From Bacteroidota bacterium (lineage in GTDB: Bacteria > Bacteroidota > Bacteroidia > UKL13-3), in assembly GCA_027484685.1 (NCBI GenBank), contig JAIXSO010000029.1, positions 1-60,911 of the forward strand: 60,911 nucleotides of DNA. The letters are read 5' to 3'. The notes under the pieces were generated by a model that ran no database searches, had not been told where the DNA came from, and saw only the letters and a program-made list of their open reading frames with translations. Positions 23,871-39,451 of this stretch are shown here, piece after piece (the stretch's first letter is position 1; every line of letters starts with the position of its first letter). The translations under genes and the position numbers were made by a program.

Positions 23871-23897
23871 AATTTTTGATTTCTTTAATCAAAAATT
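23871..23897 (+). promoter_or_regulatory. Perfect 11-bp inverted repeat upstream of the first T9SS cargo gene
   Basis: AATTTTTGATT (23871-23881) and AATCAAAAATT (23887-23897) are exact inverse complements with a 5-base spacer. The right arm contains AATCAAAA 68 bp before the ATG at 23963, matching the position of AATCAAAA upstream of the three other cargo genes. It may be an operator or an attenuating hairpin. Confidence 0.45.
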
Positions 23898-23962: not shown

Positions 23963-26509
23963 ATGAAAAAGTTTTATTACCAATTATTGTCCGCTTTTAT
24001 ATTCTTCATATTTAATAATGTATATTCACAAAACATACAGTGGGCACAAAATATGGGTGAAAACCTAGGTTATGCAAGAGGAAATTCAATTGCTAACGAT
24101 AAATTCAATAATATTTATACAGTTGGAAGTTTTTCTAATCTAGGTTTTGATATTGATTTTGGAGTAGATACATCTTTATTAGGATATTCAGGCGGTGATG
24201 ATATTTTTATTTTAAAAAATAATACCTATGGAGAATTTTTATGGGCTAAGGGAATAGGTGGTAAAAGGCGTGAAAAAGCCTCATCAGTTTCTGTAGATGA
24301 TTCTGGAAATGTATATATTACAGGCACTTTTGAAGATACAGTTGATTTTAACCCTGGAGTTAATACTAATATTTTAACAGCAATTGGCACCAATATTTTT
24401 GTTTTAAAATTAAATACAAATGGCGATTTTGTTTGGGTAAAGAATATTCCAACGACTCTCATCAATAATAATCCATCAATAAAAATTAGCAACGATGGCA
24501 GTGTAATTGTTAGCGGAGATTTTTCAGGAAACCCTGACTTTGATCCAGGTAGTGGCGTTTTTAATTTAGGTACAAGTCTTACTATTACCTTGTTTGTTTT
24601 AAAATTAAATAATCAAGGAGAGTTTGTTTTTGCAAAAAAATTAGGATCAGGTAATAATTATGGTATGTGCCTTGATAATTCGGGGAATATTTATACAACA
24701 GGAAATTTTAATTCTAGTTCAGATTTTGATCCAGATTCTAGTGTCTTTAATTTGAATAGAACAGGAGCAAACGGTATTTATATTTCAAAATTAAATGCTA
24801 ATGGCAATTTTTTATGGGCAAAAAGTTTTAAAGGAAATAATTCAGGAATGGGATTTGATATTTTTGTAGATGATTCAAATAATGTTTATTCAACAGGTAC
24901 TTTTCGTGGAGTTTCTTATTTTAATCCTAATAACCAAAATGATAGTACCATTTCGGCAGGAAATACAGACGTTTATGCTTTAAAATTAGATTCAAATGGT
25001 AATTTTATTTGGGTGAATAAAATTGGTGGTAGTGGTGGTGATAATGCAAAATCAATTTTAACTGATAAAAACAATAATTTATTGTTATTAGGCTCATTTA
25101 ACAATATAGTTGATTTTGATCCCAGAATTGGAATTCAAAATAGAACAGCCAAAAGCAATGGAAATGATATTTTTTTACTTCAATTAAAAAGTAACGGCCA
25201 ATTTGTAAATGTAAAAATCATAGGAGGAGTTGGATCCGAAAATGGAAATGATTTAACCATCGATAATCAAAACTCAATTATTATTACGGGCAATTTATCA
25301 AGTATTAAGCCTGATTTTGATTCCATTCCTGGAAAATATTTTTTAAATGTAAAAGGTAGTGAGGATCTTTTTATTGCAAAATATTCGAATTGTAATTTAG
25401 AACTGATTAAATCTCCTGAAAACAGAACAATCACTAATGGTTCGAGTACTTTTTTTGTAGTTGGCTCTTCAAGTTCAACTTCCAATTATCAATGGCAATA
25501 TTTGAGTAAAAATGGATTTGAGAATTTACAAAATGATACTCAATTTATAGGTGTTTTAAACGACACTTTATTTATCAATAATGCAACTCAAAACTTAAAT
25601 AATTATAAACTTAGATGTATTATTTATAATGATGGTTGTAGCGTTATTTCTGATACAGCATCACTTAAAGTTGAGTGTGGTTACAAAATTACCAACCAAC
25701 CAACCAGTAAAATAGTTAGTAATGATAAATCTGCATTATTTTCAATTAGTATTGATAATGCTTTTGTGGATTTTCAATGGCAACAAAAAATTGGAAATTC
25801 TTTTATAAATGTAATGAACAACGAACAGTTTTTGGGGTCAAATAATGATAGTCTGACCATTAATAATGTTAATTTAAATCAAAACAATAGTAGCTTTAGA
25901 TGTTTAACATCGTTAAACAATTGTAAGTTGATAAGTGATACAGTTACACTTTCGGTTAGATGCGAAAAACTTATAAAAACTCAGCCAGTAAGTAGAGCAA
26001 TAAATCCAGGTGGAAGTATTATATATTATATAAATACCTTTAGCACAACCGCACTGTTTCAATGGCAAATGGGAGGCACAGCATCAGGTGATTATTTTAC
26101 GAGCCTTAGTCCATCTCCTTTTATAAAAGGTGTAAACGATGATTCATTGATAGTTTCAAACAGATATCCTTTACAAAATAACAAAGAAATATTCAGATGC
26201 ATAGTAACGGATAAAGGGTGTATTGATACCTCTAATAAGGTTTTAGTTTATTTTGTTGGAACTAATGAATTACAAACAAATAATTTGAAGGTTTTTCCAA
26301 ATCCAACCTCTGATTTCATTAATGTTGAGTTTAGTAATTTTGCTAATGAAGTTAAATATCGTTTAACTGATATAAGTGGGTTAGAAGTATTAACTGGAGT
26401 TTTGGATAATTCAAAAACAACCATCAATATTTCAAACTTAAACAACGGGATGTATTTTTTGACAATGTATAATGATGCTATGATTATTTATAAAATAATA
26501 AAGCAGTGA
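23963..26509 (+). CDS. SBBP-repeat secreted protein with T9SS type A sorting domain
   Basis: An 848-residue exported protein with a signal peptide (ends NVYSQ). Residues ~25-475 are a beta-propeller of SBBP-type repeats, each with the pattern G..D.F..K....G.F.WAK..G...........D..GN.Y.TG.F....DF.PG (for example DDIFILKNNTYGEFLWAKGI, VDDSGNVYITGTF). Three ~95-residue Ig-like repeats follow (~475-760), each with a cysteine pair and FQWQ or YQWQ. The last ~75 residues (LKVFPNPTSDFINVEF then LTDISGLEV, GMYFLTMYN) are a type A sorting domain that directs secretion through T9SS and surface attachment. The binding target is unknown. Confidence 0.85.
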   Translation: MKKFYYQLLSAFIFFIFNNVYSQNIQWAQNMGENLGYARGNSIANDKFNNIYTVGSFSNLGFDIDFGVDTSLLGYSGGDDIFILKNNTYGEFLWAKGIGGKRREKASSVSVDDSGNVYITGTFEDTVDFNPGVNTNILTAIGTNIFVLKLNTNGDFVWVKNIPTTLINNNPSIKISNDGSVIVSGDFSGNPDFDPGSGVFNLGTSLTITLFVLKLNNQGEFVFAKKLGSGNNYGMCLDNSGNIYTTGNFNSSSDFDPDSSVFNLNRTGANGIYISKLNANGNFLWAKSFKGNNSGMGFDIFVDDSNNVYSTGTFRGVSYFNPNNQNDSTISAGNTDVYALKLDSNGNFIWVNKIGGSGGDNAKSILTDKNNNLLLLGSFNNIVDFDPRIGIQNRTAKSNGNDIFLLQLKSNGQFVNVKIIGGVGSENGNDLTIDNQNSIIITGNLSSIKPDFDSIPGKYFLNVKGSEDLFIAKYSNCNLELIKSPENRTITNGSSTFFVVGSSSSTSNYQWQYLSKNGFENLQNDTQFIGVLNDTLFINNATQNLNNYKLRCIIYNDGCSVISDTASLKVECGYKITNQPTSKIVSNDKSALFSISIDNAFVDFQWQQKIGNSFINVMNNEQFLGSNNDSLTINNVNLNQNNSSFRCLTSLNNCKLISDTVTLSVRCEKLIKTQPVSRAINPGGSIIYYINTFSTTALFQWQMGGTASGDYFTSLSPSPFIKGVNDDSLIVSNRYPLQNNKEIFRCIVTDKGCIDTSNKVLVYFVGTNELQTNNLKVFPNPTSDFINVEFSNFANEVKYRLTDISGLEVLTGVLDNSKTTINISNLNNGMYFLTMYNDAMIIYKIIKQ

Positions 26510-26808: not shown

Positions 26809-27549
26809 TTAGGCATTAATCATTTCTAGTAAAGTACTGATTTTTTCGCCTGATACACCTATTTGTATGTTTTTATTTACTACTAAATAACCACCATCCG
26901 ACTTGATGTATTCTGTTATGTAATTGGTATTAACAATATACGATTTATGGCATCTAAAAAACATCAAATGATTGGCTAACACGTCTTCAAAATATTTTAA
27001 ATTCCTACTTGCTAAAATTTGAGAACCATCTTTTAAATATATTTCGGTATAGGCTCTATCACCTTTAAAATAAATAACCTCAGCAGGTTCTAAAAACCTA
27101 ATTCCATTCATTTGCGGAATACCAATTTTTTTTGCACCCTCTTTACTTAACTGATGTTTTAGTAATTGATAGGTATAATTATTTTTTTCTTGCTTACTTT
27201 TTGCTCTGTTTACAGCATCAATTAAGTGCTGAAACATAATTGGTTTTAAAAGATAATCAACTGCTTGTAACTTAAAGGCATCAATGGCATATTGATTATA
27301 AGCAGTGGTAAAAATTATATCAAAGTTTATCTCATCTGCTTCAAAAAAATCAATTAATTCTAATCCACTATGTCCTGGCATTTCTATATCTAAAAATACC
27401 AATTCTGGTTGGTGTTTTTTTATGGCTTTAACACCATTAGGTAAATCATCGCAAACAGCCAAAATTTCTACATCTGCGCAGTAATTAGCAAGCATAGCTG
27501 TTAGCAATTGTCTTGCTTTGTTTTCATCGTCAATTATTATGGCTTTCAT
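26809..27549 (-). CDS. LytTR-type response regulator
   Basis: A 246-residue two-component regulator. The receiver domain (~1-120) has acidic D7/D8, phospho-acceptor D54 in LVFLDIEMPG, the conserved Thr of IIFTTAYNQYA and Lys of DYLLKP. The C-terminal LytTR DNA-binding domain (~145-246) has IRFLEPAEVIYFKGDRAYTE and FFRCHKSYIVNTNYI. LytTR regulators bind short imperfect direct repeats upstream of target promoters. It lies 67 bp after the propeller-type histidine kinase gene on the same strand and is certainly its partner. The pair sits among surface-protein genes, which makes those genes likely targets (inference). Confidence 0.93.
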   Translation of the reverse strand: MKAIIIDDENKARQLLTAMLANYCADVEILAVCDDLPNGVKAIKKHQPELVFLDIEMPGHSGLELIDFFEADEINFDIIFTTAYNQYAIDAFKLQAVDYLLKPIMFQHLIDAVNRAKSKQEKNNYTYQLLKHQLSKEGAKKIGIPQMNGIRFLEPAEVIYFKGDRAYTEIYLKDGSQILASRNLKYFEDVLANHLMFFRCHKSYIVNTNYITEYIKSDGGYLVVNKNIQIGVSGEKISTLLEMINA

Positions 27550-27616
27550 TAGGTTTCAAATATAAAATCAAAGTATATTAAAATTTAGGTATATTTTACT
27601 TAAGTGTTCTTTGATT

Positions 27617-30517
27617 TTACAAAACACTTAATGGTATTTTTAGAACCACCAAAGTACCTTCTGCAATGCCATTTTTATCAAATTTATCAGTGGTGTTTAC
27701 CCCAATTTCAGTAGTTTGTTTATTTAATAATGTCAATCGTTTTTGATTAGCTTCAGTAGAAAAGGAATTGAATTTATGGTCTTTAATGGAGTTAAGCTCA
27801 TTGGCTTTTTTTCGCCCTACGCCATTGTCATCCACTTTTATTATTAAAAATTGAGAATCTTGTTCAAACACAACACTTAAGTTTCTATTTGTTTTTTTAT
27901 GCAGTAATCCATGTTTTAAAGCGTTTTCTACATAAGGCTGAATTAACATAGAAGGAATTTTTATATCGTTAACTTTTAAATTTGGTGCAATGGTTATTTC
28001 ATAGTTTAAACTGTCTTCAAAACGCATTTTTTCGAGAGATAAATAAAGTTGAAGTGTTTCAATTTCATCGGCCAAAGTTACAGTTTCACTATTGCTCATA
28101 TCTAATATTTTGCGTGTTAACATGGAGAATTGAGCCAAATAATTAGAAGCATTTTCTTTATCGTTTAGGTAAATATATGATTGGATGGTATTTAAAGCAT
28201 TGAAAATAAAATGAGGATTCATTTGTGATTTAATAGAAGACAACATTGATTTTTGTAAATCTGTCTCTAATTTATTTTTTTCAATAAGTAGTTTACTCTG
28301 CCTGTTTATAAGCTTTAAACGGTATTTATAAATTGCAAAAAATAAAGCAGCTAATAATAAAAACACAATGATTAAAAACCATACTTGCTGCCAAATAGGA
28401 TACGAAATTTGGAATGATACATGGGCAATTGGTGAAAAATATTGACCATCGATACAAGTTTTAAATTGTATAAAATAATTACCTGGCGATAATGATGAAA
28501 GTGATAATATGCGCGCACCTTTTTCAAATAATTGCCAATTGCTATTATTAATTTTATAAAATATTTGAAGTCTGTTTTCGCTCGAAAACCAAGGTGTAGC
28601 AAAGTTAATGGTTATATTATTTTGGTTGTATTTTAAATCATTCAATACAGTTTGGCTCAGTATTTTATCGTTAACTTTTATGCTTTCAATAAATAAATTG
28701 GGTACTTTAGGTATATTAAGATCTTGATTAATGGGTGATTGTATAACACCTTCATTGCTGGCTACATATAAAAAATTGTTGTTAAAAGCAATGTCGTTTA
28801 GTTCATTATAAAAAAACGAATTTGACTTAAAATGATTTTTAAGTTCAAAATTTGATAGGTTAATGGTATATAAATTATTATCGCTTATAAGCCATATTTT
28901 ACCTTGCCAATACCTTATTTTATTGATGGTTTGGTTAATAATACTATTGCTTTTATTCCAAATTTTTACTGCTTTATTATTTACAATCATTAACACACCT
29001 TGGTTATAAGTGCTTGCGTATAAAGTATCTTTATGAATAAATAAATCACTTGCAGCTATTGGTGTACCGTTTAATTGTATTTCTGAAATTTTATGTTCAG
29101 TAATACTTAATAAGCCTTTTGCACTTGCAACATATAAGGTTGAAAAATCAGTTGATATTTCAATGGCTTTTGTGCGAGAAGTAAACTCTTTTAAATCAAA
29201 AATATTACAACAAAATAAATTGCTTGTACTTTTAGTACTGTAAAAACTACTCCAATTACTTTGCTGTTTATGCTTTATGATATTAGCTAACGAAGAGGAT
29301 GCTGCCAATAAATATTCATTATGCTCACCCAAACAAACGTCTTTAGCTGCTAAGTTAAAATTGAAGTCCTTTTTTTTATTACTCAATCCATATACCTTAT
29401 CTGCTCCAATTATATAACGATTATTAATTGAATCGAATTTTATAAAATTCACTCTATGTAAAATATCTGTTTTAAATATTTGCTTAAACTCGTTGTGACT
29501 TGAATTCAGTTGGCCAACTTCTCCAGAACTTGTTCCGGCAACAATTTGATGGTTTATATTATTAATAGTAGTAATGTTTTCATTATTAAAGTTAATTTGT
29601 TTACTATGTAAATCTTCTATAATATAAATTCCGTTATTGGTGGTGCTAATCCAATAGGCGCCATTCCTATCTTTAATAACTGCCGATATGCTGTTGTTTT
29701 TGAATAATGGTTGTTCAAATTGCATGGGTTTTAACCGGATATTATAAATAAAACAGCCAGCTGTAGTATTAATCCAAAGTAATGAATCGTTTGTAATATT
29801 CAAGGTTTGAATTAAGGCTGTTTGATTAAATAATTTTGTTTCGGTAAAGGTTGGGAATAATTGAAATAAAATTGCGTCAGCACTTGATTTATTTATAAAA
29901 AAAACATGGTTTTTATTAATAGCAAATGCGGCTCCTGACTTACTGTTTTTATTATCAAAAGTATTATTCAATATTTTTTTGCCATTAATTATTTTACTTA
30001 ATTTATTGTTTTCAATTATATAATAGTTGTTTTTATATAAGAATGAATTTACAAAATCTTTTATTCCAATACTATCTTTTAAAACAAGCTGTTTGTTATA
30101 TATGTACAACATGCTATTTGAAATAATAAAGATGTCGTTTTGGTTGTTTATATACGTTAGGTTAAAAGTTCCTGTGTTTTTTACTTCAGGATAAACCATA
30201 GAATCGTTTAAAACATAAAAATGTTGTCCAGTAAAATTTTGACACCAAATACGTCCAATACCGTCAATTATTATATTAGAAACTGCTGTGCCGTTCATTT
30301 TGGCATGTGTATAAACTACCGTGTTTTTTCCATCAAAACGTACTAAACCCTTTTCGGTTCCAAGCCAAATAAATCCATTTTTATCTTCTTTCAAATCGTA
30401 AATGGTATTTGAAGGAAGGCCGTTGTATTTGTTTATATGCCTAAAAACGGGTTGCTGCGCAAAGTTTATTTTAGCTAATAAACCTAATGCCAAAAGTAAG
30501 TGAAGCTTTATTCTCAT
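27617..30517 (-). CDS. Propeller-sensor histidine kinase (Reg_prop / Y_Y_Y / LytS-type kinase)
   Basis: A 966-residue inner-membrane sensor kinase. A signal peptide is followed by a large periplasmic region of two-component propeller repeats starting FRHINKYNGLPSNTIYDLKE with DKNGFIWLGTEKGL. Then come a Y_Y_Y domain (~625-695: FYKINNSNWQLF, LSPGNYFIQFKTC), one transmembrane helix near 700-722 (VWFLIIVFLLLAALFFAIY), a linker coiled coil, and a LytS-type His kinase domain with phosphorylated His in QMNPHFIFNALNTIQSY (~765). The ATP site has PSMLIQPYVENALKHG and DDNGVGR. It lacks the fused response regulator of hybrid systems; the separate LytTR regulator follows. The ligand is unknown. Confidence 0.92.
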   Translation of the reverse strand: MRIKLHLLLALGLLAKINFAQQPVFRHINKYNGLPSNTIYDLKEDKNGFIWLGTEKGLVRFDGKNTVVYTHAKMNGTAVSNIIIDGIGRIWCQNFTGQHFYVLNDSMVYPEVKNTGTFNLTYINNQNDIFIISNSMLYIYNKQLVLKDSIGIKDFVNSFLYKNNYYIIENNKLSKIINGKKILNNTFDNKNSKSGAAFAINKNHVFFINKSSADAILFQLFPTFTETKLFNQTALIQTLNITNDSLLWINTTAGCFIYNIRLKPMQFEQPLFKNNSISAVIKDRNGAYWISTTNNGIYIIEDLHSKQINFNNENITTINNINHQIVAGTSSGEVGQLNSSHNEFKQIFKTDILHRVNFIKFDSINNRYIIGADKVYGLSNKKKDFNFNLAAKDVCLGEHNEYLLAASSSLANIIKHKQQSNWSSFYSTKSTSNLFCCNIFDLKEFTSRTKAIEISTDFSTLYVASAKGLLSITEHKISEIQLNGTPIAASDLFIHKDTLYASTYNQGVLMIVNNKAVKIWNKSNSIINQTINKIRYWQGKIWLISDNNLYTINLSNFELKNHFKSNSFFYNELNDIAFNNNFLYVASNEGVIQSPINQDLNIPKVPNLFIESIKVNDKILSQTVLNDLKYNQNNITINFATPWFSSENRLQIFYKINNSNWQLFEKGARILSLSSLSPGNYFIQFKTCIDGQYFSPIAHVSFQISYPIWQQVWFLIIVFLLLAALFFAIYKYRLKLINRQSKLLIEKNKLETDLQKSMLSSIKSQMNPHFIFNALNTIQSYIYLNDKENASNYLAQFSMLTRKILDMSNSETVTLADEIETLQLYLSLEKMRFEDSLNYEITIAPNLKVNDIKIPSMLIQPYVENALKHGLLHKKTNRNLSVVFEQDSQFLIIKVDDNGVGRKKANELNSIKDHKFNSFSTEANQKRLTLLNKQTTEIGVNTTDKFDKNGIAEGTLVVLKIPLSVL

Positions 30518-30697
30518 TAATATTTCAAAAGTACAATTTGTTAGCTATTAGCATAATATTTGGTAAAATGAAAAGGCACTTTAGTAAAATGAATAATTTA
30601 GAATTTGTATAAAGTAACTTTGTCTAATTTACAATTAATTGCTAGTGCATACAACTTATTTTATTTCTAATTTTCCTTTAGTTTAATACTTAAGCTA

Positions 30698-30713
30698 TTT
30701 GTCAAATCAAAAC
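30698..30713 (+). promoter_or_regulatory. Conserved upstream element TTTGTCAAATCAAAAC, copy 1
   Basis: Identical 16-mers occur here and at 32443, and a 15-base match at 33655. The AATCAAAA core ends 72 bp before the ATG at 30785. The leaders downstream of the element are unrelated in sequence, so its conservation and fixed spacing suggest a promoter or activator site rather than simple duplication. It is followed by TATATTTTG. Confidence 0.6.
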
Positions 30714-30784
30714 TATATTTTGTAAAAGATACTGTAAAATAAAATTTCAGCTCTTGAAATTCGTGACTTTAAAAATAACAAAAT

Positions 30785-32299
30785 ATGAAAAAAAAATTAT
30801 TAGCAATAATGCTATTTGTAGCTTTACAATCTTTTGCACAAGTACCAACAATTGGTCTTATTAACAGATGGAATTTTGATGGCAACTTAAACAATGAAAT
30901 TTCGACAGGAGTTGATTTGGATTCAAATGAAAATGTACACTTTGGAAGAGATAGATTTGGAAATGCAAATGGTGCTTTGTATAGTATTTATGGTAATGGA
31001 CCATCAGTTAGTGGTATTGGAAATTCAACAAATATTCCTCAAGGAAATTCATCTTTTACCATTTCTTTTTGGATGTATTGCCGCCCTAGCGATAATGTTA
31101 CATGGTTTAGTTTTGGAAAAGATTCTGCATTGGGGTCATTTAACGCCATTACTAGAACAAATTACATAGAAGTTGGTATTACCAAAGATTTTAGAGCAGC
31201 TTACACCACTACTTTAAATGGTAAATGGCGTCATATTCTATTTTCTTATAATGGAACTGAACTTCAAATATACGAAGGCAATACCATGATTGATGCTTTT
31301 ACCATCAATTTAAAAACTAGTGGCAATATGTTGAAATTATTTTGTGGAATTGATGGATTCTTTAATTCAGATAGTGAACGTTTAATTGATGATTTGTATT
31401 TTTACAATCGTGTTTTATCTGGCGTAGAAAAAACACAATTAGCTAATACTGGAAGTAGTTGTAACAATTACTTTTTTTTCCTTAGAAATACAACAAATGC
31501 GAGTGTTGCTGGCAAAAATGACGGGCAAGCGCAATTTTCTTTTAGTGGACCGGCTTATCCGTTTGTAGCAAATTTAACTTTACCAAATACCACTATTCCA
31601 AAGCAAGCCACAATTAATAATGCAGATGATTTTTTTATTGATAGTTTAGAAGCTGGAAATTATACTGTTAGTTTGGTAGGAGTTGGAAATTGTATAGAAT
31701 CTAAATCATTTACAATTGGCGTGCAGCCTCCACCACCATGCGATATAGATTTAGAGACAATACCTTATGAAATAACCGATGCAAGTTCAAATACTAACTG
31801 TGATGGTGTAGTAAAATTAGATGTTAATACATCAAAACAAGGTCAGCCAATTGCTTTTGAAGGAAGAATTGAAGTAAAGCATTTAGAAGGCCCAACTAAT
31901 TTTGGAATATTTGACAGAAATCCCGATAGCATTGCTGCATTATGTGCAGGTAAATATAAAGCCATTATAACAGCAATAACAACGCGAGATAAGGTAGGAG
32001 ACACAAGATTGACTTGTGCTGATACAGTTGAGTTCACAATTGCTGCCAAAACAACAAGTATTAATGAATTAACAATAAACAAAGTGAGTATTTACCCAAA
32101 TCCTGCAAGTACTGCTTTGCAAATAAATAGTGGAAAGGAAATTAAAATAGCAGTTATAATAAATAATTTAGGACAAATTACTGAGGTTGATATAAAAAAT
32201 AATTCAATAGAAATTGGTAACTTATTAGGAGGTATTTATATACTTCAAACCAAGGATGTTTTTGGAAATTTATACACCAATAAATTTATAAAAGAGTAA
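30785..32299 (+). CDS. LamG/concanavalin-like secreted protein with T9SS type A sorting domain
   Basis: A 504-residue exported protein with a signal peptide (ends QSFAQ). Residues ~25-215 are a LamG/laminin-G-like jelly roll (GLINRWNFDGNLNNEI at the start; FTISFWMYCRPSDN, WRHILFSYNGTELQIYEGN, LIDDLYFYNRVLS), a fold that usually binds carbohydrate. The middle (~215-420) holds beta-sandwich sequence with cysteines. The last ~75 residues (VSIYPNPASTALQINSG, GGIYILQTKD, ending NKFIKE) are a T9SS sorting domain. It is transcribed divergently from the sensor-kinase gene. A hairpin terminator follows. Confidence 0.85.
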   Translation: MKKKLLAIMLFVALQSFAQVPTIGLINRWNFDGNLNNEISTGVDLDSNENVHFGRDRFGNANGALYSIYGNGPSVSGIGNSTNIPQGNSSFTISFWMYCRPSDNVTWFSFGKDSALGSFNAITRTNYIEVGITKDFRAAYTTTLNGKWRHILFSYNGTELQIYEGNTMIDAFTINLKTSGNMLKLFCGIDGFFNSDSERLIDDLYFYNRVLSGVEKTQLANTGSSCNNYFFFLRNTTNASVAGKNDGQAQFSFSGPAYPFVANLTLPNTTIPKQATINNADDFFIDSLEAGNYTVSLVGVGNCIESKSFTIGVQPPPPCDIDLETIPYEITDASSNTNCDGVVKLDVNTSKQGQPIAFEGRIEVKHLEGPTNFGIFDRNPDSIAALCAGKYKAIITAITTRDKVGDTRLTCADTVEFTIAAKTTSINELTINKVSIYPNPASTALQINSGKEIKIAVIINNLGQITEVDIKNNSIEIGNLLGGIYILQTKDVFGNLYTNKFIKE

Positions 32300-32327
32300 A
32301 AGTTAGTGGTTCGTTTTCATATAAAAT

Positions 32328-32353
32328 GCTCAATCGAAAGGTTGGGCTTTTTT
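32328..32353 (+). terminator. Terminator after the first LamG gene
   Basis: GCTCAATC-GAAA-GGTTGGGC followed by a T-run, with a GNRA-type tetraloop. A near-identical terminator follows the next gene. Confidence 0.85.
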
Positions 32354-32442
32354 GTTTTTATGACTATTGTATAAGTTTATAAATTAAGATGTTATGTGTT
32401 TTATTAATGTAGATACTATTTGTAAAACTTTTAAATAAGGTT

Positions 32443-32458
32443 TTTGTCAAATCAAAAC
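32443..32458 (+). promoter_or_regulatory. Conserved upstream element TTTGTCAAATCAAAAC, copy 2
   Basis: Identical to copy 1. AATCAAAA ends 71 bp before the ATG at 32529, which supports that ATG over an upstream start at 32487. It is followed by TAGGTTATGTAAAA, similar to the TATATTTTGTAAAA after copy 1. Confidence 0.6.
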
Positions 32459-32528
32459 TAGGTTATGTAAAAACTTTCACAATTTATTGATTCTGATTTT
32501 CCAATTTTGTTGCATAATAATCTATACA

Positions 32529-33521
32529 ATGATAAAAATAATTACAACAGTATTTGCAATTTGTGCATCAGCAAGCCTTTTTGGGCAAACAGTTCCAACC
32601 AATGGTTTAGTAGGAAGATACTCTTTCGATGAAAATTTTAACGATGCATCGGGTAATAACCGACATTTAATTTATGTATCAAAAACTAGCTCTGATCAAA
32701 GTTTTAGGTTGTCCGATACCAGTAAAATTGGTAAATCATTAGCAGCTTTTGATAAAGATATTTTTTCGGCATTATATCATCCATCAAATGATTTTAATTT
32801 TACCAATACATTTTCTGCTAGTGTATGGGCGCAGCCAACGGCAAATATGCTTCAAAATGGTTTTATATTTGTAAATAGAGCCAATATATCTAATGGTAAT
32901 GGAGGTGTTTCTATATACAATAATTATGCACTATGGATATCGAATATTGATAGAAAAATCCATTTTACTTGTAATGATGTAATTGTATCGTCTACTACTT
33001 TAACTCAAAACTATAACTGGTACCATATAGCTGTTAGCTATAATAATGGGGTAGGTAAGATATATGTAAATGGCATATTAGAAAGTACAAATACCAGTTT
33101 TCCTGCCATTATAAATACTTATGGTAATGGCACATATTTTAACAAAGACTATTTAATGGTAGGAGGATTATTTGAAAATGGGCAATCGCAATACAATTCT
33201 TTTATGGATGAATTGTATATTTATAATAGAGAGCTCAGTCAACAAGAGGTTGCAAATATTCATAATGGTAATTCTTCTAGTATTGAAAACATAAAAACTA
33301 GCATAATAAATGTATTTCCAAACCCAACCAAAAATAAATTAAATATAAAAAGTGATGTTGAAATTAAAGAAGTAATTACCATAAATAGCATGGGACAAAT
33401 TTCTGAGTTTGATATCATAAACAACTCAGTTGATATTGGCAATTTACCAATAGGAATATACATCATTCAAATTAAAGATGAAAAAGGAAATTTATATACC
33501 AAAAAGTTTGTTAAAGAATAA
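32529..33521 (+). CDS. LamG-domain secreted protein with T9SS sorting domain (paralogue)
   Basis: A 330-residue exported protein. The start chosen is ATG 32529, giving a proper signal peptide (MIKIITTVFAICASASLFG-Q); the earlier start at 32487 would put 14 extra hydrophobic residues in front and breaks the constant leader length. A LamG fold spans ~20-245 (GLVGRYSFDENFNDASGNNR, FSASVWAQPT, WYHIAVSYNNGVGKIYVNGI, FMDELYIYNRELSQQEV). A T9SS type A domain ends the protein (INVFPNPTKNKLNIKSD, PIGIYIIQIKDEKGN, ending KKFVKE). It resembles the previous gene in its ends, promoter element and terminator, but lacks the middle domain, so it is a tandem paralogue. Confidence 0.82.
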   Translation: MIKIITTVFAICASASLFGQTVPTNGLVGRYSFDENFNDASGNNRHLIYVSKTSSDQSFRLSDTSKIGKSLAAFDKDIFSALYHPSNDFNFTNTFSASVWAQPTANMLQNGFIFVNRANISNGNGGVSIYNNYALWISNIDRKIHFTCNDVIVSSTTLTQNYNWYHIAVSYNNGVGKIYVNGILESTNTSFPAIINTYGNGTYFNKDYLMVGGLFENGQSQYNSFMDELYIYNRELSQQEVANIHNGNSSSIENIKTSIINVFPNPTKNKLNIKSDVEIKEVITINSMGQISEFDIINNSVDIGNLPIGIYIIQIKDEKGNLYTKKFVKE

Positions 33522-33548
33522 AGGTTAGTAGTTAGTTTTCATATGAAG

Positions 33549-33575
33549 GCTCAACCGAAAGGTTGGGCTTTTTTT
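33549..33575 (+). terminator. Terminator after the second LamG gene
   Basis: GCTCAACC-GAAA-GGTTGGGC followed by seven Ts. Relative to the terminator at 32328 it carries a single T-to-C change that turns a G-T pair into G-C, keeping the stem. Confidence 0.87.
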
Positions 33576-33654
33576 GTTTTTAATTCCTGTATTTATTGTC
33601 ATTATACATTGTTTTAGCGAATAGTCATTTTTAGTAAAATTTAAAAATTAGGGT

Positions 33655-33669
33655 TTTGTCAAATCAAAA
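33655..33669 (+). promoter_or_regulatory. Conserved upstream element TTTGTCAAATCAAAA, copy 3
   Basis: Matches copies 1 and 2 over 15 bases. The core ends 70 bp before the ATG at 33740. The downstream TATTAG may be a weak -7 element. Confidence 0.58.
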
Positions 33670-33704
33670 AAGGTATTAGTATAAACTACAAAAATAATTG
33701 GCAG

Positions 33705-33728
33705 TACTACACAAATATTTGTGTAGTA
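33705..33728 (+). promoter_or_regulatory. Perfect 24-bp palindrome in the leader of the giant surface-protein gene
   Basis: The left half TACTACACAAAT is followed directly by its exact reverse complement ATTTGTGTAGTA, ending 11 bp before the ATG at 33740. It could be an operator for a dimeric regulator, or an mRNA hairpin that covers the translation start region. Confidence 0.5.
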
Positions 33729-33739
33729 ATACAAATATT

Positions 33740-36700
33740 ATGAATTATAAAAACAGAACAAATTTTAAACTAACAATAAAGTATGAAGCCATAAAGGTTG
33801 CCTTTATACTTTATGCTATTTTTAACTTTAATGGTTTAATAGCACAATCAAAAACTCCTCAGCATGCGTGGAGTTTTGGTCTTACTAATGCCTTAAACAA
33901 AGGTGTAAAAACCGATAGTTTAGGCAATCTTTACTTAGTTGGTCAAACAGGTGGGAATGCCGATTTTGACCCAGGAACTGCAACTTCAACAATTTCTGCA
34001 GGAGTTTATATTGCTAAATACACTCCCAACAAAGAATTGGTTTGGGTTACTTCTATTTCGGCTGGTACTTGTAATTTTTTTGATGTATCCGCAGGCGGAA
34101 AAGTTGTTTTAGTAGGAGGTTATTCAACAAGTACATTGTTTGGTAATTCAGGTGGAGCATATATGGCTACCATCAATAACAATGGCACTTTATTGGGATC
34201 TCATGGTTTAGCTAACGATGGAAATAACGGAGGTTCAGTAGCTAATGATATGCTAAGTTGTGTGTTTGATAAAAATGAAAATGTAGTTGTTCGTGGACGT
34301 TATGGTGTTACAGGTTCTATCTTACGCAGCATTGATCTAAATCCCGCACCTGGTTTTCAAACCGCAACTACCTACAGTTCTTCAAGCGGAACAGCTGACT
34401 ATTTGGTTAGACTTACCGCTAACCTAACCTATTTAAATCATAGATTTATAAATGGTGGCTTAATTGGAAGCTCATGGGATATGAAAATGCGTAATGATAC
34501 CCTATATTGGGCAGTGGATTTAAATGGTTCAACAAACTTTAACCAAGGCAATAGCACTGCTTTTAATGAAACTGGTCCACAATGTATAGTAGCCTATAAT
34601 GCGACTAATTTTAGTGTATTATGGACTTGTCCATTAGCAGTGGGAACCACCAATTCTAATATGCGTTTAGCATTTAACAGTAATAATGAGCTGGCTGTAG
34701 CTTATCAATCTAATTGGGCTACCAATGTTGATTTAGATCCTCATCCAATAGGTGTTTATACTTTTATTTCAAAGCGTTTGCCTACTGGTTTGTACAGCGT
34801 GTATTTAGCTCATTATAATGCAGCAAATGGTACTTTAATTGCAGGCAATAAGCAGCCAAGAATGGTTATTGATACCATTGATGGTTATCCCAATATTTAT
34901 GTAAATGGTTTTTATATTGATAAAAAGGGAGCTTATTATTTTTCTGGTGCAGCCAATGGAACTTTTGATTTTGATAGAAATATAACATCTACTTATATAC
35001 GTACTTCATCGAATACTTTCGATTCTTATTTTGCAAAATACAATGCTGATTTAAATTTAGATTACGCAGCTATTTTAACCAATACAGCCAATAGTAGCGA
35101 TGGTTTTACCGGAATTGCTGTTACCGATTCTAGCTCAATTTTTGTAGCAGGTACATATGTAAATACCCATAACATAGATAGTACTAAATTGAGTCCTAAT
35201 TTGCCTTTATTAAATGCCACTGCCACTAATACTGTATTGGCTAAATATGTTGCTGAACCATGTATAATTAACTTAAACATAAATAGTGCTGATAATATTG
35301 AAAGCTGTAAAATAAATGTAACTACAGTAGCTACTTCTTTAACCATGCCTTTAAAATACCAATGGTATAGAAACGGTGTATTGTTAACAGCCGATACTTT
35401 CGCAAATATTGTTAATACCACTACTGGTATTTACCAATGCAAAGTTTCAAATAGTTGCGGTGAAAAATGGTCAAAGAAAATAACTTTAACTACCTTAACT
35501 AGTTTTACTTCAAATTTCAGTTATCCATTAGATGGTAATGCATTAAATGAACTTGCTACTACTCAAAACGGTGTGGCTACATCTATTTCTTATGGAAAAG
35601 ACAGATATGGAGTAAATAATAAAGCGGCTGTTTTTAATGGAACTTCATCAGTTATTGATGTTACTGGAGGTATGATTTCAGGCGACAATAATGGTGTTTC
35701 GGTTTGGTTTAAAAGAGCTAACTTAAATCGCAAAGCCATGAGCTTAATTGGTTTTCAAATAGCAAGTCCTGGTTCATGGAATCCAATTTTATACTTGGAT
35801 TCAACAGGACGTTTATCGGGTTATGTTTATCCAGGAAGTGGTTCTCCAATTTATTCATCGGGCATTGTTATGGATACCAATTGGCATCATGCAGCTTGGA
35901 CATACAGTGCTGCTTTGGGCAAACAAATTATTTACCTTGATGGAGTAGAAGTGGGAAGTATGACCTCAGCAGCATTGCAAATAGGTACTTCTAATATATT
36001 TAAAATTGGAAATGGTTATTTAAATACAACTTTGCAAAACGTAAATGCTACTGGAAATAACCAGTTTTTTGAGGGATTAATAGATGATGTTAGAATTACT
36101 TCAACCTTAAAAGCAGGTAATGTTATTCAATTATTCAATGATATAAAAATTTATGGACAAATACCTACAGCCAGCAGTTCGGGTGCAGTTCCTATTTGCG
36201 CTGGTGTTTCAACCACAGTGCAAGTTATAGTTGGTAATAGTGGTTTAAGTTATCAATGGTATAATCAACCATCAAAGGGTACATTCACGGCCTTGGCTGA
36301 TGGGGTAAGTTATTCTGGCGTTAAAACCAATGCTTTAACCATTAACTCCATGCCTTCAACCGATATGAGTTTACGTAATACCATTACTGATAATTTTTGC
36401 AATTCGGTTGATTATTATAATTTAAATTTGACTGGTATTTTAAATAGTACTATAGTTAGACAACCAGTGAATCAAACTGCATGTGTTGGAGAAACAGCCA
36501 TGTTTACTATTAATGTAGCAGGAGGACAAAGTTATGTATGGAAAAAAAATGGAGTAGTTATTCCTAATTCAAATAATGATACTTTGATTTTAACAAATAT
36601 TACCACTGCTGATTTTACAAGTTATACTTGCGAAGTTACTGGTTGCAATAGTGCTGTAATTAATTCAAATGCAGCAACATTAACAGCGGCACCAGCTTCT

Positions 36701-39451
36701 ATTGTTACCAATAACACTGTTTCTAATAGTTTGGTTTGTTTGGGTAGCAGTGTGTACTTTTTTGTGGGTGCTCAAAATGCTGCATCATATCAATGGAAAA
36801 AGAATAATGTAAATATTCCAAATTCTAATAACGATACTTTGTTTATCAATTCGGTACAAAGCAGCGATGTAGCTAATTACACTTGCGAAATTACTGGTTG
36901 TTCAAACAATATACTTGTAAGTGGCGCTGCTACATTTACCATTACTACTAATTTTGCTACAACTAATTTAGTTAGCTATTGGAAGTTTGATAATAATTTA
37001 ACTCCAACGGTAGGTACAAATACCTTTACGCCAACAAATACTGGTTTTGCATTTACAACCGATAGAGCAAATATTACCAACAAAGCAGTTATGCTAACAG
37101 CCACAAACAATGCATTGGTTTTAGCTAGTCCTGTAGCTACAGATAATATTTCTGTTTCATTATGGTATAAACGTGTAGCTAATTCTTTAGGTGAAGCTAT
37201 CATAGGAAGTAATAGCGCAAACTATGGCGATATGTTATTTATAAATGGTTCTGGTATTTTGGGTTACCAAGTTGGTGGTTCTGGTTTTCAATCTTTAGGA
37301 GTTACCGTTACCAATGGCTGGCATCATTTTGTGGTAACCAAAGCGGGAACTACCACTAAAATTTATCTTGATGGAAATAATATTACCATTCCAACTACTA
37401 TAGTAGCTCCACCAACTATGGGAAGTGGTGCAAGTAATACCCAAATCAATCGTTTTGGAAATACAGCTCCTATTTATAATACCAATGGCGCTAAAGGAAC
37501 ATTTGATGAAATACGTATTTACAGTTCAGTTTTAACTGCCACTCAAGTAAGTGCTTTATTCCAAATGGCTGAATTCAATAGCATTTCGGGTTTTGGAGCT
37601 GTGTGTTTAGGAAGCGCTGCTTCGGCTTCAGTTAATGTAACCGCAGGGTCAAATGTAACTTACCAATGGTTAAAAAATGGTAGTCCAATTCAAGGAGCAA
37701 ATGCCGCCACATATACTGTTAATAATGTACAAGTTACCGATACAGGAAGCTATTCATGTTTAATTGGTTTGTCTACAGCTTGTGCAGGTGTATATTCTAC
37801 TAATATTAATTTAAGTATTATTCAGAGTAATTTAGCTATTACCTCGCATCCTACTAATCAAAACATTTGCCCACTTCAAGAAAATCAATTTATCACATTT
37901 CAAGTAACTGCCACTGGTTCAAATTTAACTTACCAATGGAAAAAAAATGGAATAAATATACCAAATGCTTTTAACTCAATATATAGTGTAAATATTGCTA
38001 ATGTAGTCAATAATGATTCATTTACAGTAATGGTTTCAAATGGTTGTTCTAGTATATTGTCAAATGTTGCTTTGGTGAAATTTATTGATGCACTTCAAAT
38101 AACAAATCAGCCTACTAATTTAAATGTATGTACCAATACAAACGCACTTTTTGTAATAAAAACAGAAGGACAGAACATAACTTATGTTTGGCAAAAAAAT
38201 GGGGTTAGCATTCCAAATAGTAATAATGATTCTTTGTTATTAACCAATGTTACTACTGCCGATGCAGCTAACTATAGAGTAATTATGAATTATACGTGTG
38301 GAAATGTTATTTCTAATACAGTAAGTTTATCACTTAGCAATGCTACACAAATTACCTCGCAACCTATAGCACAAACGGTATGCACAAGCCAAGGTTTTAA
38401 CTTTAGTGTAACGGCCACGGGCGATAGTTTACAATACCAATGGAAGTTAAATGGCAATAATATTGCTGGAGCAAATAGCAGTACTTTTAGCAAAACGTTA
38501 GTTAGTGCTGCCGATTCTGGTAATTATACAGTTTCAATTTCAGGAACTTGCGGTAGCCAAAATTCATCTGTAGCTAAATTAAGCATAGTAAATAGTATAA
38601 GTATTTTAACTCAGCCAAGTGCAGTTAATTCATGCCAAGGCTCAGTTTCTTATTTAAGTTTGGTTGCCTCTGGCAATAACAATAACTATACTTGGTTTAA
38701 AAACGGAACTGCTGTCGCTAATTCAAATAATGATACGCTATATTTTAATAGTTTATCAAACAGCGATGCTGGTAACTATATTTGTGAAGTTACATCAAGT
38801 TGCGGAACAGTAAATTCAGCTATTGCAGCTGTTTCGGTTAAGGCAAAATCGGTTTTTAACTTTAACAAAACCATTTGTAATGGCGAAACATTTACTTTTA
38901 AAGGCAATGCTTTAAGCCAATCAGGAATTTACTTTGATACTACAAGTAATGCTGTAGGATGCGATTCAATAATAACTTTAAACTTAACCGTAAATACACC
39001 ATTAACTGTTAGTATAAGTAACAATCAAAATACATTAACTGCAACGGCTGGCTTTAGCAATTACCAATGGTATTTAAATAATGTAATAATTGCAGGAGCT
39101 ATTAATGCAACTCATACTGCAGTAGCCAATGGCGATTATACTGTAAAAGTAAAAGATGCTACCAATTGCGAAGCAACTAGCAATACATTGGTAATTCAGA
39201 ATGTGGGTTTAGAAACTATTAATCCATTAACATTTACAATTTATCCTAATCCTGCTACTAAAACATTAAGTATTGAAAGTAATACAGATATTACAGATAT
39301 TCAAATATTTGCACTATCAGGTACTTTGGTTAAAAATGCAGTATTAACCAATAACACAATAGTTATTGATGATTTAACTAGCGGAATTTACTTAATAAAG
39401 GTAACTGATAATAAAGGTTATAGCTTAACTAGAAAGTTTGTTAAGCAGTAA
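33740..39451 (+). CDS. Giant multidomain surface protein (two LamG, many Ig-like domains, T9SS sorting domain)
   Basis: A 1903-residue exported protein. ATG 33740 is chosen over an upstream in-frame start at 33698 because it keeps the ~70-bp spacing seen in its neighbours. N-terminal signal (FILYAIFNFNGLIAQ). Residues ~35-510 are SBBP/propeller-like (ADFDPGTATSTIS, TDSLGNLYLVGQTGG). Then come one Ig-like domain, a LamG domain (~595-790, FNGTSSVIDVTGG), two or three Ig-like repeats, a second LamG (~1085-1270, WHHFVVTKAGTTTKIYLDGN), and five or six more Ig-like repeats. Many Ig repeats share Y-x-W-K-K-N-G then IPNSNNDTL (36538, 36787, 38188, 38690), so the array grew by internal duplication. 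A type A sorting domain ends it (FTIYPNPATKTLSIESN). Likely an adhesin. Confidence 0.85.
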   Translation: MNYKNRTNFKLTIKYEAIKVAFILYAIFNFNGLIAQSKTPQHAWSFGLTNALNKGVKTDSLGNLYLVGQTGGNADFDPGTATSTISAGVYIAKYTPNKELVWVTSISAGTCNFFDVSAGGKVVLVGGYSTSTLFGNSGGAYMATINNNGTLLGSHGLANDGNNGGSVANDMLSCVFDKNENVVVRGRYGVTGSILRSIDLNPAPGFQTATTYSSSSGTADYLVRLTANLTYLNHRFINGGLIGSSWDMKMRNDTLYWAVDLNGSTNFNQGNSTAFNETGPQCIVAYNATNFSVLWTCPLAVGTTNSNMRLAFNSNNELAVAYQSNWATNVDLDPHPIGVYTFISKRLPTGLYSVYLAHYNAANGTLIAGNKQPRMVIDTIDGYPNIYVNGFYIDKKGAYYFSGAANGTFDFDRNITSTYIRTSSNTFDSYFAKYNADLNLDYAAILTNTANSSDGFTGIAVTDSSSIFVAGTYVNTHNIDSTKLSPNLPLLNATATNTVLAKYVAEPCIINLNINSADNIESCKINVTTVATSLTMPLKYQWYRNGVLLTADTFANIVNTTTGIYQCKVSNSCGEKWSKKITLTTLTSFTSNFSYPLDGNALNELATTQNGVATSISYGKDRYGVNNKAAVFNGTSSVIDVTGGMISGDNNGVSVWFKRANLNRKAMSLIGFQIASPGSWNPILYLDSTGRLSGYVYPGSGSPIYSSGIVMDTNWHHAAWTYSAALGKQIIYLDGVEVGSMTSAALQIGTSNIFKIGNGYLNTTLQNVNATGNNQFFEGLIDDVRITSTLKAGNVIQLFNDIKIYGQIPTASSSGAVPICAGVSTTVQVIVGNSGLSYQWYNQPSKGTFTALADGVSYSGVKTNALTINSMPSTDMSLRNTITDNFCNSVDYYNLNLTGILNSTIVRQPVNQTACVGETAMFTINVAGGQSYVWKKNGVVIPNSNNDTLILTNITTADFTSYTCEVTGCNSAVINSNAATLTAAPASIVTNNTVSNSLVCLGSSVYFFVGAQNAASYQWKKNNVNIPNSNNDTLFINSVQSSDVANYTCEITGCSNNILVSGAATFTITTNFATTNLVSYWKFDNNLTPTVGTNTFTPTNTGFAFTTDRANITNKAVMLTATNNALVLASPVATDNISVSLWYKRVANSLGEAIIGSNSANYGDMLFINGSGILGYQVGGSGFQSLGVTVTNGWHHFVVTKAGTTTKIYLDGNNITIPTTIVAPPTMGSGASNTQINRFGNTAPIYNTNGAKGTFDEIRIYSSVLTATQVSALFQMAEFNSISGFGAVCLGSAASASVNVTAGSNVTYQWLKNGSPIQGANAATYTVNNVQVTDTGSYSCLIGLSTACAGVYSTNINLSIIQSNLAITSHPTNQNICPLQENQFITFQVTATGSNLTYQWKKNGINIPNAFNSIYSVNIANVVNNDSFTVMVSNGCSSILSNVALVKFIDALQITNQPTNLNVCTNTNALFVIKTEGQNITYVWQKNGVSIPNSNNDSLLLTNVTTADAANYRVIMNYTCGNVISNTVSLSLSNATQITSQPIAQTVCTSQGFNFSVTATGDSLQYQWKLNGNNIAGANSSTFSKTLVSAADSGNYTVSISGTCGSQNSSVAKLSIVNSISILTQPSAVNSCQGSVSYLSLVASGNNNNYTWFKNGTAVANSNNDTLYFNSLSNSDAGNYICEVTSSCGTVNSAIAAVSVKAKSVFNFNKTICNGETFTFKGNALSQSGIYFDTTSNAVGCDSIITLNLTVNTPLTVSISNNQNTLTATAGFSNYQWYLNNVIIAGAINATHTAVANGDYTVKVKDATNCEATSNTLVIQNVGLETINPLTFTIYPNPATKTLSIESNTDITDIQIFALSGTLVKNAVLTNNTIVIDDLTSGIYLIKVTDNKGYSLTRKFVKQ

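Follow-up and report, generated by a model that had tools for sequence, protein, structure and literature searches.

A predicted LytTR operator with two half-sites 21 bp apart beside a cassette of T9SS surface-protein genes in a Bacteroidota genome

The sites of response regulators with a LytTR DNA-binding domain are described as direct or inverse repeats, 9-11 nt long and spaced by 11-13 nt, that have no letters in common (PMC4847170; this and the other papers named by PMC number are cited for excerpts of them). In YpdB/BtsR of E. coli, a kinase with a PF06580-type domain is paired with a LytTR regulator, the site consists of two direct repeats at a 21-bp pitch (GGCATTTCAT occurs twice in the yhjX oligonucleotide; PMC4847170), and YpdB has a single target gene, thus a private regulon. 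Here we describe a locus with the same pairing and the same pitch in the genome of a Bacteroidota bacterium (assembly GCA_027484685.1), within a 60,911-nt stretch of contig JAIXSO010000029.1 that we call the window. In it a 15-mer, TTTGTCAAATCAAAA, stands before three consecutive genes for surface proteins that are cargo of the type IX secretion system (T9SS), next to the genes of a LytTR regulator and a sensor kinase. We propose that the 15-mer very probably belongs to an autoregulated LytTR operator, made of two half-sites on the same DNA face at a 21-bp pitch, that would drive the neighbouring cassette of T9SS adhesins. Among NCBIfam models the window regulator is nearest to BtsR, at 144.7 bits, below the 246-bit cut-off. 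The locus differs from the E. coli systems in its half-site letters, in the Reg_prop repeats of its kinase and in its targets, which are transporters there and T9SS surface proteins here.

The AgrA, ComE and HdrR-BrsR regulators of Firmicutes also have direct repeats as their sites, spaced by 11-13 bp and placed immediately before the promoter. The AgrA site is centred near -60 (PMC4227749), close to the half-site cores of the window near -47 and -68, and AgrA has FFRCHNS (PMC4227749) where the window regulator has FFRCHKS. In the operons of LytTR regulatory systems (LRS) of S. mutans the repeats lie 4-11 bp before the -35 box, and the HdrR-BrsR type forms an autoregulatory loop, as predicted here (PMC6193735). 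Unlike these activators, the present locus has no -35/-33 box, and its -7 box is of the Bacteroidota type. Two predicted examples of LRS repeats come from Bacteroides (PMC6193735); the sequence in Table 3 of that paper, TCCGGTATTCA-11bp-ACCGGAAATCA and then TGTA-19bp-TATCTTTG, resembles ours in having direct repeats at a pitch of about 22 bp upstream of a TAnnTTTG promoter. Those operons differ in their membrane-protein-coupled regulators, whose own operon is the only target, in the half-site, in the presence of a -33-like TGTA/TGTG, and in a box that by our count lies about 7 bp further away.

Two-component control has been linked to type IX secretion in Porphyromonas, where PorXY-SigP reaches the genes of the secretion machine through an extracytoplasmic function (ECF) sigma factor (PMC4800418), whereas here a LytTR regulator stands beside a few cargo genes. 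The regulation of individual T9SS cargo is little known, and the literature that we found deals mostly with the secretion machine. The direct-repeat type of LytTR site is already known; in the open-licence papers searched we found no report of a LytTR operator before T9SS cargo genes, nor of this regulon.

Two-part sites in the window

The 15-mer starts at positions 30698, 32443 and 33655, and the end of AATCAAAA lies 72, 71 and 70 bp before the ATGs at 30785, 32529 and 33740; a recount thus bears out the positions and spacings given in an earlier note on this DNA. No further exact copy exists in the 4,525,610-base genome. Each of the three lies before a T9SS-cargo gene, and an order-2 Markov estimate from the window predicts 0.17 copies per genome on both strands. 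Five further genome copies with one mismatch all fall within called open reading frames.

The earlier note had taken the leaders to be otherwise unrelated, with a TA-rich box 12 bp after the TTTG. We found instead that a second core, GTA(A/T)AA, follows exactly 21 bp after the GTCAAA core in all three leaders (GTAAAA, GTAAAA and GTATAA), and that an nAnnTTTG box stands 35 bp later before genes 32529 and 33740; the TA-rich box is spacer and not a -7 box. We read the 15-mer as the first half-site of a larger predicted unit, together with the A-tract behind it; the half-site consensus is about TTTnGTnAAnT. An activator site, which the earlier note had considered plausible, is still the best reading, but the 15-mer would be only half of it, the other half lying 21 bp downstream.

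Before the first target gene (30785-32299, plus strand; 504 aa, with Laminin_G_3 and a T9SS C-terminal sorting domain) the predicted operator at 30701-30728 has GTCAAAT at 30701-30707, inside the 15-mer at 30698-30712, and GTAAAAG at 30722-30728; it ranks seventh, with a score of 1.4, among the matches in the window to the matrix described below. Its -7 position at 30757-30764, AAATTCGT, is degenerate, and the congener has CAAATTTG. The second gene (32529-33521, plus strand; 330 aa, Laminin_G_3 and T9SS sorting domain) is preceded by a predicted operator at 32446-32473, with GTCAAAT at 32446-32452 and GTAAAAA at 32467-32473 (rank 2, score 8.3), and by a -7-like box, CAATTTTG, at 32502-32509, +35 from the second G. 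Given a box position of -12 to -5 (PMC9723704), its transcription would start near 32514. For the third gene (33740-39451, plus strand; 1903 aa, immunoglobulin-like and Laminin_G_3 domains and a T9SS sorting domain) the predicted operator is at 33658-33685, with GTCAAAT at 33658-33664 and GTATAAA at 33679-33685 (rank 3, score 7.1), and the -7-like box, AATATTTG, at 33714-33721, again +35 from the second G. The leader of this gene also contains a near-perfect palindrome (33697-33736; two overlapping 23-nt arms, 87% complementary), which overlaps the predicted -7 box. Since the alternative TTG starts at 32487 and 33698 sit upstream of the predicted -7 boxes, the ATG starts at 32529 and 33740, which the earlier note had regarded as resolved, are favoured.

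The same bipartite unit precedes the two regulatory genes. The response regulator gene (26809-27549, minus strand) encodes 246 aa with a LytTR domain (2.7e-15) and FFRCHKS at residue 197; in a structure search, the best 60 of 95 matches were without exception relatives of the receiver domain. Its predicted operator at 27593-27620, minus strand, has GTAAAAT at 27620-27614 and again at 27599-27593 (rank 5, score 4.1) and overlaps the stop codon of the kinase gene. The -7 box of this gene, TATATTTG, at 27557-27564 on the minus strand, has the full consensus and lies +35 from the second G and 8 bp before the ATG. An mRNA from this box would start about 3 nt before the ATG (27549-27564) and would be nearly leaderless. 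The best-scoring predicted operator (30563-30590, plus strand; GTAAAAT at 30563-30569 and 30584-30590; rank 1, score 15.7) lies in the divergent region between gene 30785 and the sensor kinase gene (27617-30517, minus strand; 966 aa, Reg_prop repeats and a His_kinase domain). It is inverted relative to the kinase gene, whose -7 box, TACTTTTG, is at 30526-30533 on the minus strand, and a repeat search independently gave a 14-nt repeat 21 bp apart there, at 30559 and 30580 (family D14). The five sites span about 6 kb (27594-33684). The adjacent LytTR regulator remains the best candidate, and the protein that docks on the two-part site is probably this regulator, encoded next door.

A congener, G003 (contig JAAFJM010000022.1, a Bacteroidetes metagenome-assembled genome), carries the same cluster, with a regulator 99.6-100% identical and a kinase 86% identical to those of the window; the order of the two smaller cargo genes is exchanged. 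All five operator sites recur in G003, four of them forward before cargo or regulator genes and one inverted before the kinase gene, and TTTG is found at +35 in 6 of the 8 forward sites of the window and G003 together.

Part of the likeness between the leaders of the window comes from descent. Genes 30785 and 32529 have the same domains. Each is followed by one copy of a duplicated terminator-like stretch (32325-32359 and 33546-33580; the two match at 89% over 35 nt), and copies 2 and 3 of the element match at 73% in the surrounding 66 nt. Because genes 32529 and 33740 share the terminator-like stretch before them, their two copies of the element are partly homologous by descent, and the cassette grows by duplication, with the gene order changed in the congener, a sign that the cluster has been reshuffled. 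That the three copies are no more than remnants of a tandem duplication of gene and promoter, with no regulator behind them, is nevertheless very improbable: the same unit also precedes the regulator and kinase genes, which are unrelated, and the 21-bp pitch is found with diverged letters beside regulators in other orders. A palindromic site for some other regulator, such as one of the CRP/FNR kind, is suggested by copies 2 and 3, which read TTTTGTCAAATCAAAA, a TTTTG-N6-CAAAA dyad. In relatives, however, the dyad is gone (first half, for example, GTTAACTGAAAA) and the GTnAA cores at 21-bp pitch stay, so that we hold this explanation to be extremely unlikely.

As the earlier note stated, AATCAAAA also occurs 68 bp before the ATG at 23963 (23887-23894), within an inverted repeat of 11 bp. 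We rejected it as a fourth site, since the inverted repeat is of different make-up and the region before that gene reaches a matrix score of no more than -16.9, compared with 1.4, 8.3 and 7.1 for the three cargo genes.

Sites beside related regulators

The loci of the best 80 of 426 relatives of the regulator, which are related among themselves, were split by identity into a first group (clade A) of 34 loci (L143-L176) and a second group of 46 (L177-L222). In the first group, 62 GTnAA pairs at lag 21, some of which are tandem repeats or a queuosine-gene inverted repeat and not operators, were found in 26 of 34 loci (other lags: mean 5.3 loci, maximum 14), while in the second group they were at background, in 6 of 46 (mean 5.1, maximum 11). 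The half-site of the second group is (C/T)AGAA, with 81 lag-21 pairs in 36 of 46 loci (other lags: mean 2.0, maximum 7), and this form is at background in the first group (1 of 34). Many other Bacteroidota thus have the layout of the window next to a related regulator. A letter-free test, in which 9-mers had to be alike in 8 places, agreed near the kinase gene, where lag 21 appeared in 19 of 34 loci and the next lag in 5 (91 matches, as against 39 matches in 5 loci for lag 14). Over all intergenic stretches, lag 21 was found in 33 of 46 second-group loci (next lag, 10), and in the first group lag 14 gave 157 matches in 17 loci and lag 21 gave 132 in 23; 7-bp tandem repeats (GTGAATG...) account for part of the lag-14 signal.

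Two other repeat patterns were seen in these loci. In L146-L149 (for example L146:2839-2990) a queuosine-synthesis gene (PF02547) is preceded by a conserved inverted repeat, in which GGCGTTGTCAAGTAAAAC is followed by a stretch like GTTTTACTTGACAACGCC, and TATATTTG lies downstream of it. This repeat looks like a lag-21 pair but is probably a control element of another kind. Downstream of the second-clade regulators of L179, L204, L222 and L219 there are lag-21 repeats with other half-sites (TTAGAAGTT; ATTCATT/ATTCAC), and the half-site letters seem to diverge further within that clade.

The half-site type follows the regulator tree. In a quick maximum-likelihood tree of 85 regulators, the window and the GTnAA loci fall in one clade of 40 rows (Shimodaira-Hasegawa-like approximate likelihood ratio test, SH-aLRT, 99) and the CAGAAA loci among the other rows; the type changes once over 51 labelled rows, with 34 unlabelled rows (30 loci and four paralogs) left out. 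A matrix of 42 columns was built from 17 sites of 14 Flavobacteriia loci and run along the window on either strand. When each locus was kept out of its own matrix, the top site scored above 10 in 27 of 34 first-group loci and in 3 of 46 second-group loci, and 13 of the 20 first-group loci that had given no training site also passed this score. The predicted site is thus conserved with the regulator lineage and particular to it, with exceptions in G000 C14, G005 and G006 that are taken up below.

No same-letter sites were found before the kinase genes of the paralogous pairs in G000, G003, G005, G006, G009 and G004, and the matches of a genus-wide model search outside the two clusters were all weak. 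GTAAA at +34 from TATATTTG/TACATTTG before three paralogous kinase genes has no clear 21-bp partner, and we do not claim it. The best genome-wide matches of a sequence model were the five window sites, whose scores are not independent because the model was trained with them included. The best match outside the window, an intergenic TTTTATAAAACCAAAACAAGGTTTCATAAAAG at C20:8192-8224 of G000 (L228:1501-1533), scored 23.1 bits, almost the 23.2 of the weakest window site; it may be a sixth site or the site of another, related regulator.

Promoter geometry

The TTTG of a -7 box lies at +34/+35 from the second core in 21 of the 62 first-group pairs and at +33/+34 in 74 of the 81 second-group pairs, and TAnnTTT lies at +34/+35 in all 17 training sites. 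The usual promoter of the genome itself is TTG-N19-TAnnTTTG, with a peak at N19 (9 forward cases). TTG at N18-N20 before the -7 box was found in none of the 21 first-group sites with a box, in 9 of 52 TAnnTTTG boxes of the same genome at most 120 bp from a start, and in 14 of 74 second-group sites. The first-group sites therefore do not have the canonical Bacteroidota sigma-A promoter (TTG-N19-TAnnTTTG), in agreement with the earlier note. With the box at -12 to -5, the half-site cores fall near -47 and -68, and this position without a -33 box would suit an activator that compensates for the missing -33.

The missing TTG and the constant distance to the start codons would also fit a promoter read by an alternative sigma factor of the ECF type, with the element as its upstream box; in P. 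gingivalis, T9SS genes are controlled by such a factor (PMC4800418). Against this stand the two repeated halves 21 bp apart, the -7 box further downstream with its sigma-A-like TTTG, and the association of the site with the LytTR gene; of the six annotated neighbour proteins tested, none was called as a sigma factor. We therefore give an ECF promoter very little credit. A second preferred spacing of +45, about one helical turn further (6 of 62 pairs), was considered and rejected, since four of the six are the single inverted repeat before the queuosine gene in four Flavobacterium loci; once the queuosine repeats are dropped, +45 is left only at the third cargo gene of the congener.

Weight of the evidence and reach of the regulon

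Four features of a LytTR operator, namely the repeat spacing, a linked regulator with the contact motif, conservation within the regulator lineage and a position immediately upstream of a promoter, are found at the predicted sites. Several observations weigh against an operator of this kind. The 15-mer with at most three mismatches shows no enrichment across the window (23 copies against 20.3 expected), and with one mismatch its 8 genome matches are close to the 6 of a reversed-pattern control. The training sites of the matrix were chosen by a GTnAA lag of 21 and 84-92 bp to the start, rules learnt from the window. In 20 Markov control sequences the maxima ran from -0.6 to 9.1 (top values 9.1, 8.1 and 5.6), so that only the rank-1 site exceeds all controls and the other four lie within their maxima. 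The kinship of the loci means that the counts are not independent, 7 of the 34 clade-A loci have no site scoring above 10, and paralogs of the same clade in G000 C14, G005 and G006 (about 55% identical) have no matching site before their kinase genes (-10 to -14). The kinase operator is inverted, and the full TAnnTTTG occurs only at the regulator's own promoter, the cargo boxes being CA/AAnnTTTG and gene 30785 lacking TTTG; this gene and the third cargo gene of G003, with its box at +45, are the exceptions to the +35 rule. Since single matrix scores mostly lie within the controls, it is the joint ranking of the five sites that counts. The exact bipartite pattern, likewise, has 13 genome matches (8 outside the cluster), as many as its reversed control; the only telling point is that 5 of the 13 lie together within about 6 kb.

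From the observed sequence, spacing, conservation and linkage to one regulator clade, we infer the following course of phosphorylation, binding and activation for a LytTR operator. The Reg_prop kinase (27617-30517) would sense a signal and phosphorylate the LytTR regulator (26809-27549), two molecules of which would occupy the half-sites, two helical turns from each other and on the same side of the DNA. The bound regulator would recruit RNA polymerase to a promoter with its -7 box 35 bp further on and no -33 TTG, and would switch on, rather than repress, the three T9SS-secreted laminin-G-type surface proteins. The site before the regulator's own gene would close a positive loop, and through the inverted copy the regulator would act on the kinase promoter.

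The reach of this regulon appears, as far as sites can be predicted, to be local and private to one cassette. Beside related regulators, 9 of the 10 genes behind first-group sites have a T9SS sorting domain and 9 of 10 have Laminin_G_3, and 4 of the 7 genes behind second-group sites have the sorting domain. The earlier note had raised a link of the element to T9SS cargo genes, and all three exact copies do stand before cargo genes, as a genome-wide motif search confirmed. No T9SS-wide enrichment was seen: of 55 cargo genes sampled, 3 have the site, and these are the ones in the cluster; none of the 52 others has it. The best genome matches of the sequence model were, as said, the window sites included in it. 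On this sample, a general regulatory element of T9SS cargo genes is next to impossible and was rejected, and the predicted regulon would be one of the cassette and not of the T9SS.

If the proposed operator is real, it provides a concrete regulon of kinase, regulator, operator, promoter and targets, and its geometry gives a rule for finding further such operators where the letters differ. It is also conceivable, although we would not yet count on it, that many Reg_prop-kinase/LytTR pairs of the Bacteroidota are private-line adhesin switches, each controlling only the T9SS surface-protein cassette that adjoins it, with a fixed geometry (halves 21 bp apart, 33-35 bp to the -7 box) and with letters that diverge along with the regulator, so that paralogous systems would be insulated from one another. 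The regulator clades with their matched half-sites offer raw material for learning how the LytTR domain reads DNA.

The genome has at least 150 cargo-type genes (150 of 222 candidates were scored). In this survey the sorting-domain matches of G000 contigs C51 and C54 (1316-1540) and of C19 and C68 (1147-1374) fell at identical contig coordinates, which suggests that these are near-duplicate contig ends of the assembly.

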